Positions 19,653-22,831 of a stretch of 64,000 nt of DNA are shown piece after piece. A model generated the notes under the pieces. It did no database searches and was not told the origin of the DNA. It was given only the letters and a program-made list of their open reading frames with translations. The stretch comes from Mesorhizobium sp. (GTDB lineage: Bacteria; Pseudomonadota; Alphaproteobacteria; Rhizobiales; Rhizobiaceae). The stretch's first letter is position 1. Each line of letters begins with the position of its first letter. The position numbers were made by a program, and so were the translations under genes. The stretch covers positions 1-64,000 of the forward strand of contig NZ_JAFKIC010000118.1 in the NCBI RefSeq assembly GCF_017306585.1, written 5' to 3'.

Positions 19653-21089
19653 ATGATGCCGCCTGCAAAAAAGGAAGTCCGTCCGTCGAGCCGCGGAGGA
19701 CGCGTCCGCACGCCTGCCTTCGTAAAAAACCAACGTGGTGTCAAAGACTGGAAGGAAGTCAGCGCCTGGCTTGAATGGCGCGGCATCGAGGACATCGAGT
19801 GCATCACGCCCGACCAGGCTGGCGTCGCGCGCGGCAAGATGATGCCGTCGAAGAAGTTCACCTCCAACACCTCGCTGGCCCTGCCCTCGGCCGTCTTCAT
19901 GACGACGATTTCCGGCGGCTATCCCGAGGACGGCAACGGCTTCCACTATCCCGAGGACGATGGCGACCTCAAGCTGATGCCGGATCTTTCGACGCTGACC
20001 GTGGTGCCCTGGGAAGAAGACCCGACGGCCGCCGTGATCTGCGATCTCGTGCACCAGGATGGCCGCTCGGTCGAGTTCACGCCGCGCAATGTGCTGAAGC
20101 GCGTGCTCGCCGCCTACGACAAGCGCGGGCTTAAGCCTGTCGTGGCCCCCGAGATCGAATTCTACCTCGTGCGCAAGAACCCCGATCCGGACTATCCGCT
20201 GACGCCTCCCGTCGGCCGCTCGGGACGCGCCATCGGCGGCGGCGCCGGCTATTCGATCGCCGGCGTCAACGAGTTCGATGAGCTGATCGACGACATCTAT
20301 CATTTCTCCGAACGGCAAGGCCTGGAGATCGACACGCTGATCCACGAGGAAGGCGCCGGCCAGCTAGAGATCAACCTGCGCCACGGCAATCCGATCGAGC
20401 TTGCCGACCAGGTGTTCATGTTCAAGCGCACCATCCGCGAGGCGGCGCTGAAGCACGAGATCTACGCAACCTTCATGGCCAAGCCGATCCAGGGCCAGCC
20501 CGGCTCGGCCATGCATATCCACCAGTCGATCGTCGACAAGAAGACCGGCAAGAACATCTTCTCGGCCGAGGACGGCTCCGAAACCGAGGATTTCTTCCAT
20601 TTCATCGGCGGCATGCAGCAGCATGTGCCGAACGCGCTGGTGATGTTCGCGCCCTACGTCAATTCCTATCGCCGGCTGACGCAGGCGGCTTCCGCTCCGG
20701 TCAACAACAAATGGGGCTACGACAACCGCACCACTGCGTTCCGCGTGCCGCGTTCCGACCCGGCGGCGCGGCGTGTGGAAAACCGTATCCCGTCTTCCGA
20801 CGCCAATCCCTACCTGGCGCTCGCGGCATCGCTCGCCTGCGGACTGATCGGCATGACCAACAAGATCAAGGCCGAGCCGCCGGTGCTGACAACGGCCAAT
20901 GCCGACGAGATCGACTTGCCGCGTGGCCTGCTCGAGGCCGTCGACCTCTTCGAGGGCGACGAGGAACTTGCCGCGATTCTCGGCAAGTCCTTCGCCGCCA
21001 CCTATGCGGCGATCAAGCGGGCGGAATTCGAGACCTTCATGGAAGTGATCAGCCCGTGGGAGCGCGAGTATCTGTTGCTCAATGTCTAA
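19653..21089 (+). CDS. puuA: Glutamine synthetase-family ligase, gamma-glutamylputrescine synthetase-like
   Basis: A 478-residue class of glutamine synthetase with the conserved active-site tracts VAPEIEFYLV, EEGAGQLEINLRHG, GSAMHIHQS and the C-terminal RRVENRIPSSDANPYLA. Sequence style and length match PuuA-like gamma-glutamylpolyamine synthetases rather than GlnA. Such enzymes join glutamate to putrescine as the first step of the Puu pathway. The next gene is a PuuB-like oxidase and a putrescine importer lies 6 kb upstream, which supports the assignment. No adenylylation-type Tyr loop was identified. The spacer to puuB carries a repeat-bracketed pseudogene. Confidence 0.82.
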   Translation: MMPPAKKEVRPSSRGGRVRTPAFVKNQRGVKDWKEVSAWLEWRGIEDIECITPDQAGVARGKMMPSKKFTSNTSLALPSAVFMTTISGGYPEDGNGFHYPEDDGDLKLMPDLSTLTVVPWEEDPTAAVICDLVHQDGRSVEFTPRNVLKRVLAAYDKRGLKPVVAPEIEFYLVRKNPDPDYPLTPPVGRSGRAIGGGAGYSIAGVNEFDELIDDIYHFSERQGLEIDTLIHEEGAGQLEINLRHGNPIELADQVFMFKRTIREAALKHEIYATFMAKPIQGQPGSAMHIHQSIVDKKTGKNIFSAEDGSETEDFFHFIGGMQQHVPNALVMFAPYVNSYRRLTQAASAPVNNKWGYDNRTTAFRVPRSDPAARRVENRIPSSDANPYLALAASLACGLIGMTNKIKAEPPVLTTANADEIDLPRGLLEAVDLFEGDEELAAILGKSFAATYAAIKRAEFETFMEVISPWEREYLLLNV

Positions 21090-21105
21090 GGGAATAGGGG
21101 AGTAA

Positions 21106-21121
21106 GGCAGTAGGGCAGTAG
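21106..21121 (+). repeat. Two tandem GGCAGTAG octamers, left border of inserted cassette
   Basis: Two perfect copies of GGCAGTAG start 17 bases after the puuA stop, preceded by a degenerate GGGAGTAA. They are the reverse complement of the CTACTGCC array at 21502-21533, so the four-helix-bundle gene is bracketed by inverted arrays. Confidence 0.85.
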
Positions 21122-21129
21122 GGGTGAAT

Positions 21130-21495
21130 ATGGCGAAGATCGAATCGTACAGAGATTTGGTCGTCTGGCAGCAGGCCATGGATCTCGCGGTATCAATCTA
21201 CGAAGCGACAAAGACTTGGCCGAGAGAATAACTCTATGGATTGACACCTCAAACGCGCAGGGCAGCCACTTCAGTACCAGCCAATATCGCCGAAGGTTAT
21301 GGGCGAGAAAGCAGAGCCTCCTATCAGCAATTTCTCAGGATTGCGCAGGGATCGCTGAAGGAGTTGGAGACCCACTTGCTGATCGCGCAGCGTGTCGGAA
21401 TTACCTCCAGTGAGGCAACCGGACCATTGATGAGCCGAAGCGAAAGCGTTGGAACGCTCTTGCGGCTACTAATCCGCAAGCTGTCCCCTGAATAG
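21130..21495 (+). pseudogene. Four-helix-bundle (S23/IVP-like) protein gene with internal stop
   Basis: The frame from the ATG at 21130 reads MAKIESYRDLVVWQQAMDLA..., then a TAA at 21229-21231, then continues in the same frame as LYGLTPQTRRAATSVPANIA...EGYGRESRASYQQFLRI. This is the signature of the four-helix-bundle family named after the protein encoded in 23S rRNA intervening sequences and related to Avd of diversity-generating retroelements. The consensus at the break is P-K/R-E-E-x-Y-G-L, so the stop most simply arose from GAA to TAA. No frameshift is seen. The remaining 3' part has no obvious own start. Either the gene is dead or it is read through. The inverted octamers around it suggest it moved here as a unit. 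Confidence 0.85.
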
Positions 21496-21501
21496 CCTTA
21501 C

Positions 21502-21533
21502 CTACTGCCCTACTGCCCTACTGCCCTACTGCC
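21502..21533 (+). repeat. Four tandem CTACTGCC octamers, right border of inserted cassette
   Basis: Four perfect head-to-tail copies of CTACTGCC lie six bases after the four-helix-bundle stop and 11 bases before the puuB start. Together with the GGCAGTAG pair at 21106-21121 they make an inverted bracket about 396 bases apart that could pair in RNA or mark element ends. Confidence 0.9.
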
Positions 21534-21544
21534 CTCGGAGCATC

Positions 21545-22831
21545 ATGCCTTATCAATCCCCAATCTCCCCCGGCCGTTCCTGGTACGAGGACACGGCCGG
21601 TCCTCGGCCCGAATACGCCGCACTTGACGGCGACCGGACCTGCGACGTTGTCATCATCGGCGGCGGCTTTACCGGCTTGTCCGCAGCCGCGCATTTGGCT
21701 GCGACCGGAACCAACGTCGTCCTGCTCGAATCCTACCGCTTCGGCGATGGCGCCTCTGGTCGCAATGGCGGGCAACTCGGCACCGGGCAGCGTGCCTGGG
21801 CCGAAGACCTGGAAGCCGAATACGGCCTGTCGCGCGCCAGGGCGCTTTTTGACATGGCGGAGGAAGCGAAAGCCCATCTGCTCGACTTCGCCACCGTCAA
21901 CCGGATCGACATCGACTATGTACCGGGCCAACTGTCGGTCGCCCACAAGCCTCGCTATGTCGACGACTACAAGGCGCATGCCGAAATCATGGCCAGCCGG
22001 TTCTCCTATCCGCATATTTCCTTCATGGATGCGACGGAGACGGCGGAGCGGCTGGGTTCTACGGCCTATTTCGGCGGGACTCGCGACACGGGCACCGGGC
22101 ACATCCATCCCATGAAGCTGGTGATCGGCACGGCGCGGGTGGCAGCGCAAGCCGGCGCGCACCTGTTCGAGCAGACGTCATCCACGGGCATCGTTTCTGA
22201 CGGCGGCAAGGTGAAGGTTTCCACGCCAAAAGGCACGGTTACGGCGAAGAAGTGCCTGATCGCCGTCAACGCCTATGGCGGAACGCTTGAGCCGGTGAGT
22301 GCAGCGCACATCATGCCGATCGGCTCCTTCATCGGCGCGACGGTGCCACTCGGAACGGATACGAAAGTGCTGCCGGGCGGCGAGTCCGTCGACGACTCCC
22401 GCTTCGTCGTGCGCTATTTCCGCAAGTCGAGGGATGGCCGGCTGCTGTTCGGCGGGCGCGAGGTCTACGGCGTCAACGATCCCAAGGATATCCACATCCA
22501 TATCCGCCGCCAGATCGCCGAGCTCTACCCAGCATTGAAGGATGTCGAGATAACCCACGGCTGGGGCGGCTATGTCGGCATTACAGTGCCGAGAAAGCCC
22601 TTCGTGCGCGAAGTGATGCCGAACGTGATCTCGGCGGGCGGCTACTCCGGCCACGGCGTGATGTTGTCGAACTACTTCGGTAAGCTCTATGCCGAAACCG
22701 TCACCGGCAACCGCGACCGGCTGAAACTGATCGAGGATCTGAAAATCCCGCCCTTCCCCGGCGGCCGGCGATTCCGCACGCCGCTGCTGTTCCTGGCCCT
22801 CAACTGGTTCGCGCTGCGCGACAGGATTTAG
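21545..22831 (+). CDS. puuB: FAD-dependent oxidoreductase, gamma-glutamylputrescine oxidase-like
   Basis: A 428-residue DAO-family flavoprotein with the dinucleotide-binding motif VVIIGGGFTGLSAAAHLA at about residue 34 and the family tracts GASGRNGGQLGTGQR and HGWGGYVGITVPRKPFV. It matches PuuB/OrdL enzymes, which oxidise gamma-glutamylputrescine to the aldehyde with release of ammonia and H2O2. It follows the PuuA-like gene in the same direction, although 455 bases of inserted sequence separate them. The aldehyde dehydrogenase (PuuC) and hydrolase (PuuD) steps are not in the window. Confidence 0.85.
   Translation: MPYQSPISPGRSWYEDTAGPRPEYAALDGDRTCDVVIIGGGFTGLSAAAHLAATGTNVVLLESYRFGDGASGRNGGQLGTGQRAWAEDLEAEYGLSRARALFDMAEEAKAHLLDFATVNRIDIDYVPGQLSVAHKPRYVDDYKAHAEIMASRFSYPHISFMDATETAERLGSTAYFGGTRDTGTGHIHPMKLVIGTARVAAQAGAHLFEQTSSTGIVSDGGKVKVSTPKGTVTAKKCLIAVNAYGGTLEPVSAAHIMPIGSFIGATVPLGTDTKVLPGGESVDDSRFVVRYFRKSRDGRLLFGGREVYGVNDPKDIHIHIRRQIAELYPALKDVEITHGWGGYVGITVPRKPFVREVMPNVISAGGYSGHGVMLSNYFGKLYAETVTGNRDRLKLIEDLKIPPFPGGRRFRTPLLFLALNWFALRDRI

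Follow-up and report, generated by a model that had tools for sequence, protein, structure and literature searches.

A cassette at positions 21090-21535 of a 64,000-nt stretch of Mesorhizobium sp. DNA (contig NZ_JAFKIC010000118.1, assembly GCF_017306585.1; the whole stretch is called the window here) is probably a decayed member of a family of small mobile elements that encode the four-helix-bundle protein IVP and that also have gene-less derivatives. In our comparisons of genome sequences, the cassette family was shown to occupy many unrelated sites, often gene junctions internal to operons and sometimes in frame inside genes. The plan of the element appears to be a tandem array of a 7- or 8-nt unit, an IVP gene, and a like array in inverted orientation. 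A mobile unit had been proposed in a first-pass annotation made from the window sequence alone. Support for that proposal now comes from empty sites, from recurrence in this genome and in the genus, from unrelated loci in several phyla, and from a pair of cyanobacterial loci (L145 and L158) described below.

IVP genes and their inverted arrays

A scan of named genomes yielded 80 IVP loci, mostly in Hyphomicrobiales, with others in cyanobacteria, Acidobacteria, Planctomycetes, Chloroflexi and further groups. A strict test placed arrays on both sides of 27 of these genes (inverted in 26), on one side of 32 and on neither side of 21, against 2 of 294 control windows. Seventeen of the 21 array-negative loci were viewed by eye, and nearly all had degenerate inverted arrays. 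With a softer measure, which examined periods of 5–12 nt at the 78 loci left once two with short flanks were set aside, period-7/8 arrays were detected in the flanks of 77 loci (control 6/245) and the flanks were inverted at 70 (control 3/245). An earlier control for inverted flanks, at a higher threshold, gave 68 of 79 loci, against 1 of 193 neighbouring genes and 1 of 79 shuffled flanks; the inverted-score threshold of 27 was set after this first control and then applied to the 78 loci and to two further sets of 42 and 34. One of the 193 control genes scored 91 for inverted flanks; another gene may have such repeats.

Eleven of 17 non-rhizobial genomes provided the set of 42 loci, at least five of which (L300, L320, L322, L323 and L325) repeat loci of the named set. 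Period-7/8 arrays were present at 36 and inverted at 31, one locus being unscorable, and the units were very different. Among 34 loci from viral_contigs records, some of which look like host DNA, 26 had period-7/8 arrays and 20 were inverted; periods of 6–9 nt were examined in both of these sets. The array period is conserved and the unit is not. We tried a fixed unit, G[GCT][CG]A[GA]T[ACGT], which fits most of the 80 named loci, and rejected it because it fails in further genomes. Two acidobacterial genomes, G184 (of locus L173) and G186 (of L138), have 20 and 19 PF05635 matches, respectively, some of them fragments; their arrays were noted to have many different units.

Occupied junctions include puuA-puuB and nuoC-nuoD and, by Pfam, a sucC-sucD-like pair, DUF58-BatA and kdpA-kdpB. 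From sequence motifs, we take two further ones to be an acyl-CoA-dehydrogenase-like/HIBADH-like junction and pgk-tpiA. Apart from those named by Pfam, the junctions are co-directional with IVP, as judged from noisy calls of open reading frames (ORFs). Three elements are antisense in operons, between two MacB-like genes (L289), ABC and HlyD genes (L311), and kdpA and kdpB (L319).

The window cassette (Table 1) has the octamer order GGGAATAG GGGAGTAA GGCAGTAG GGCAGTAG in its 5′ array (21090-21121). All six occurrences of GGCAGTAG in the window fall within the cassette, a number reached in 0 of 100 shuffles. For inverted complementarity, the two 150-nt cassette flanks scored 46; 1000 two-base-block shuffles gave at most 27, and 46 was reached at none of 1945 random window places. 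The gene matched PF05635 (E 1.6e-36, 125.2 bits; curated cut-off 33.8) and the TIGR02436 four helix bundle model (118.7 bits; curated cut-off 24), in both cases with an in-frame TAA at codon 34 read through; because of this stop, the window copy is a pseudogene. PF05635 was matched at a single place in this genome. Among the matches listed, an IVP gene lies at the puu site in about 61 of 146 genus genomes, a few of the matches being partial, and nearly all of the genus IVP matches listed are stop-free, stops also being present in the copies of genomes G099, G103 and G140. The nearest named orthologue at the puuA-puuB junction is that of Mesorhizobium sangaii (L109). Purifying selection acts on the puu-site IVP gene (dN/dS 0.081).

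Table 1. Features of the window cassette and its neighbouring genes.
Feature	Position	Strand	Description
5′ array	21090..21123	+	four octamers (two degenerate, two GGCAGTAG) plus GG; begins at the first base after the puuA stop codon
IVP / four-helix-bundle gene, pseudogene here	21130..21495	+	PF05635, TIGR02436; relatives have intact copies at this junction
Premature in-frame stop TAA, codon 34	21229..21231	+	
3′ array	21501..21535	+	CCTACTGC repeated 4.4 times, inverted relative to the 5′ array
Upstream host gene, glutamine-synthetase-like (puuA-like)	19653..21089	+	
Downstream host gene, DAO-family oxidoreductase (puuB-like)	21545..22831	+	

The first-pass annotation had correctly placed the inverted arrays and recognised the four-helix-bundle gene, although it counted two octamers in the 5′ array instead of four and overlooked the premature stop. 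The position that it gave, between puuA and puuB, also holds, while the gene names appear to fit at family level only; a gamma-glutamylputrescine synthetase model matched the upstream gene below its cut-off.

Gene-less copies, empty sites and elements inside genes

Arrays also occur apart from the gene. The exact double octamer was found 33 times on 8 contigs of this genome and its reversed control 0 times. Six or seven further places, on contigs C106, C167, C170, C257, C287, C361 and C379, have no gene and are built as an array, a short spacer without evident likeness, and an inverted array. The C257 and C379 copies are truncated at contig ends; C379, which starts within an array, may represent the opposite end of C257. 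Across 146 genus genomes, the double octamer was present in 107 (this genome counted) and its reversed control in 2, and a short hairpin pattern was present in 124 and its reversed control in 5, one match each way. Array copy number varies freely. A search for octamer arrays in rhizobial genomes had been suggested at the first pass, and its expectation was borne out both by these counts and by the inverted arrays that flank four-helix-bundle genes at unrelated loci.

Comparison of the puuA-puuB junction in relatives, also suggested then, revealed empty sites. Twenty junctions were fetched from genus members lacking the gene there, picked by hand rather than at random. Of the 18 that were readable, six nucleotides separated the stop codon from the start codon in four, and the other 14 had short hairpins of other units, such as TAGCGAA, GTGAATG and TAGTGAG. 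This junction (L089-L106) looks like a hot spot, IVP-less genomes often having hairpins of at least three other heptamer units. At nuoC-nuoD, a match spanned an IVP-bearing query in 12 of 61 genomes, with G077 and G111 matching into the gene. Among 18 further loci at this junction, 15 had a gap of 2–15 nt from the last aligned codon of nuoC to the start of nuoD, two had other inserts and one was unreadable; flanks were alike in L218, without an element, and L190, with one. The other inserts, at L208 and L209, were 207 and 364 nt long and are perhaps coding. The site of the C167 gene-less hairpin was compared at 30 loci, of which 11 had the hairpin, 5 a bare 62-nt gap and 14 other sequence. In relatives of other species, larger unrelated palindromic-looking repeats were noted at this spot (L230-L247).

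The empty sites at these three loci indicate that gene-bearing and gene-less forms both come and go. With arrays also found elsewhere, the gene and its arrays are not the single-locus feature, devoid of empty sites, that the first-pass annotation had named as the mark of an old fixed gene.

Cassettes inside coding genes had been overlooked in that annotation. An element lay inside a long ORF that stayed open through it at 4 of the 80 named loci, 2 of the 34 viral_contigs loci and none of the 42 non-rhizobial loci. The host genes of L145, L165, L188 and L340 encode Eco57I/PglX-type methylases (by Pfam or NCBIfam), as does that of L158, assigned through orthology with L145 (its own Pfam match falls below cut-off); the host gene of L343 encodes an error-prone DNA polymerase. 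At L165 the element is near the ORF end, downstream of the Pfam matches. All six host genes use the IVP+2 frame. Under synonymous shuffling, the chance of an open frame was 0.105 for L145, 0.04 for L158, 0.31 for L165, 0.01 for L188, 0/500 for L340 and 0.074 for L343; L145 and L158 are close kin. Intergenic IVP genes had more open +2 frames than expected (11 of 75 versus 1.1, with 248 +2 stops versus 352 expected), an excess that was mostly discounted; among the controls, 27 of 200 coding pieces were open versus 10.2 expected, and 2 of 89 low-GC ones versus 0.8.

The clearest case of movement appears to be that of the cyanobacterial loci L145 and L158. The same element (86.5% over 459 nt) is in frame at two positions of orthologous methylase genes, and each locus lacks an element at the other's position. 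Gene and arrays appear to have shifted as one block. Further gene-less in-frame array-like repeats were seen in the same methylases (L188:3907-3938; L158 at about aa 596-610).

Mode of movement and competing explanations

We propose that the arrays serve as recognised ends, folding as hairpins in single-stranded DNA or RNA. IVP, a four-helix bundle structurally like Avd, would bind the array hairpin and, together with a host-supplied enzyme, would copy or paste elements both with and without the gene. Slippage would alter the number of array units, and the intervening sequences (IVSs) of 23S rRNA would be the same element after settling in rRNA genes. A role for IVP in movement is suggested by its constant presence, the selection on it and its fold. 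We also built an IVP tree, with 88 rows after 21 of 109 similar or truncated rows were removed. Within sites, the unit changes 27 times on this tree, compared with at least 40 in 1000 shuffles, which is suggestive of unit-specific recognition by IVP.

Several observations weigh against this proposal. On the same tree the insertion site changes only 7 times. When each row is paired with its closest IVP from a different site, the two have the same unit in only 23 of 71 rows (17.2 on average and 26 at most in shuffles), and four GCGAATA rows (L137, L156, L169 and L178) fall outside the group of other GCGAATA rows; slow vertical inheritance may account for much of the agreement between unit and tree. 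Nor are the 80 named loci all independent, since many come from related hosts and fall at a few shared sites. Octamer arrays are still held by 15 of the 28 genus members without any IVP match (20 listed, plus 8 by elimination), so IVP is not needed for keeping arrays. The median number of octamer matches elsewhere was 18 in the 19 puu-site-IVP genomes of the GGCAGTAG class versus 1 in the 28 IVP-less genomes, an excess confounded by shared ancestry, and the 11 genomes of the GGGAGTAG class were the same as the GGCAGTAG class (median 16, p 0.46). The likeness to Avd is weak by Foldseek (E 0.03), and, as the aligner itself cautions, helical bundles score highly. Arrays and IVP gene fill 21090-21535, where no transposase or other cutting or joining enzyme is encoded, in agreement with the first-pass annotation. 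No target duplication was defined from the filled and empty sites read, the array ends blurring the boundary. Movement in trans had also been suggested at the first pass; gene-less copies are indeed common, but no mover was found, and no new insertion was observed among the comparisons made.

The cassette might instead hold an old fixed host gene, whose product, on binding the arrays of the operon mRNA, would tune the gene downstream; the arrays would then be its operators, and the cassette would no longer move. Purifying selection at the puu site, the rarity of site changes on the IVP tree, and the filling of the same few junctions across Mesorhizobium, Phyllobacterium and Brucella/Ochrobactrum fit such a gene. 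We consider it unlikely nonetheless, given the empty sites at three loci, the one element at two positions in L145/L158, the elements inside genes and antisense inside operons (e.g. kdpA-kdpB), and the broken window copy. An origin of the arrays alone, by replication slippage at permissive junctions, with IVP genes captured by chance or recombination, would explain freely varying copy number and the many gene-less arrays, and heptamer repeats without a known mover are described for other bacteria in the available text of PMC4679880. The presence of arrays at 77 of 78 IVP genes, 70 of them inverted, makes this quite improbable, as do the inverted pairing of gene-less copies, the site that is bare in relatives, and the shift of gene and arrays as one block at L145/L158.

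Retromobility, a special form of the mobile-element explanation, seems possible though doubtful: stem-closed cassette RNA would be copied by a trans-acting reverse transcriptase, with IVP as its Avd-like partner. An Avd-like accessory fold was found for IVP, and neighbouring genes are mostly co-directional with it (among ORFs of at least 200 aa in the 42-locus set, 27 of 37 upstream and 21 of 34 downstream share the IVP strand, a noisy count). Reverse transcriptase (PF00078) matches occur in 74 of the 146 genus genomes, with two here, on contigs C81 and C179. Octamer matches were more numerous in genomes with such a match (median 15 versus 5.5, p 0.002), a correlation that may reflect shared ancestry or genome size. 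However, 18 of the 72 genomes without one have at least 20 octamer matches, and antisense elements exist; strictly RNA-level insertion in the sense direction, tried as a candidate, was weakened by the three antisense operon cases (L289, L311 and L319). IVP also differs from the Avd of diversity-generating retroelements (PDB 4DWL, 8UB7), with 11% sequence identity. As the first-pass annotation had it, no reverse transcriptase match was found on the cassette contig (C108), so one is lacking at the same locus, where such a retroelement would have it.

Passage of IVP as a mere passenger, in REPIN-like hairpins moved by RAYT (Y1) transposases, is highly improbable. The gene-less elements do resemble REPINs, in the available text of PMC3116915, as short inverted doublets around a spacer that are predicted to form hairpins, lie dispersed between genes and are presumably moved in trans. 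Unlike REPINs, the cassette ends in 7–8-nt tandem arrays, and its protein is a four-helix bundle rather than a Y1 transposase. Y1_Tnp (PF01797) was found in 25 of the 146 genus members and is absent from this genome, in which no search for other transposases elsewhere was made. Octamer medians were 10 and 10 with and without it (p 0.39), and 39 genomes without Y1_Tnp have at least 20 matches. RAYT was therefore rejected as the mover, being rare in the genus and absent here, and is largely refuted. Sixteen genus genomes with neither a Y1 transposase nor a reverse transcriptase have at least 20 octamer matches each.

Relation to known elements

A closely similar anatomy is described in the available text on Coxiella burnetii (PMC4990558). 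Its 428-nt IVS, in helix 45 of the 23S rRNA, has terminal inverted repeats that form a stem, an S23p/IVP ORF, and tandem heptamers of varying copy number just before the ORF; it is excised by RNase III. The cassette likewise has terminal inverted repeats around an IVP ORF and short tandem repeats before it, and we file it with the 23S rRNA IVS kind because of this similarity. Unlike the IVS, the cassette lies outside any 23S rRNA gene, between puuA-like and puuB-like metabolic genes (elsewhere, in protein genes), with arrays on both sides and with dispersed gene-less derivatives. The array ends, the operon and in-gene sites and the gene-less derivatives appear to be what is new relative to the rRNA IVS. 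The same source calls the Coxiella IVS selfish and credits Ralph and McClelland 1993 with the hypothesis of a role for the ORF in mobility. Should IVP genes belong to elements of standard anatomy that are gained and lost at protein-gene sites, this old hypothesis would become testable in harmless bacteria.

Other small repeats share parts of this anatomy. Rickettsia palindromic elements and MITEs, as far as the text available describes them (PMC10969869), are also non-autonomous small repeat units inserted in frame in protein genes; IVP elements differ in encoding a conserved protein in a non-host frame and in ending in tandem arrays. The TAACTGA heptamers of Beggiatoaceae, cyanobacteria and Bacteroidetes are likewise of period 7, intergenic and patchy across phyla, but are direct repeats, mostly just before start codons (PMC4679880). 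Their proposed binders are of S1 and Csp types, and 'four helix' is absent from that text. If our proposal is true, it would offer a source for some bacterial heptamer arrays.

More broadly, and tentatively, IVP elements may constitute a distinct class of bacterial mobile DNA, without a transposase of a known kind, whose self-homogenising arrays have a fixed 7- or 8-nt period and free sequence and are recognised by the encoded Avd-like protein. Such elements would insert at operon junctions and, where an alternative frame is open, in protein genes, and would spawn abundant gene-less hairpins, the 23S rRNA IVSs being one case. In the literature covered, which excludes most subscription journals and all preprints, and in the portions of text available, we recognised no paper that connects inverted arrays with IVP genes at protein-gene sites, that on the Coxiella IVS (PMC4990558) coming closest.

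IVP genes have been reported in cas loci, for example between cmr3 and cmr2 of Pleurocapsa PCC 7327, in the available text of PMC3936711. These may represent an element inserted in an operon rather than a cas function, and the proposal, if true, gives a possible reason for IVP genes inside unrelated operons such as these. In Flavobacterium columnare, a four helix bundle gene between those of guanylate kinase and nicotinate adenylyltransferase is listed among phage elements, in the part of the source available (PMC5524665).
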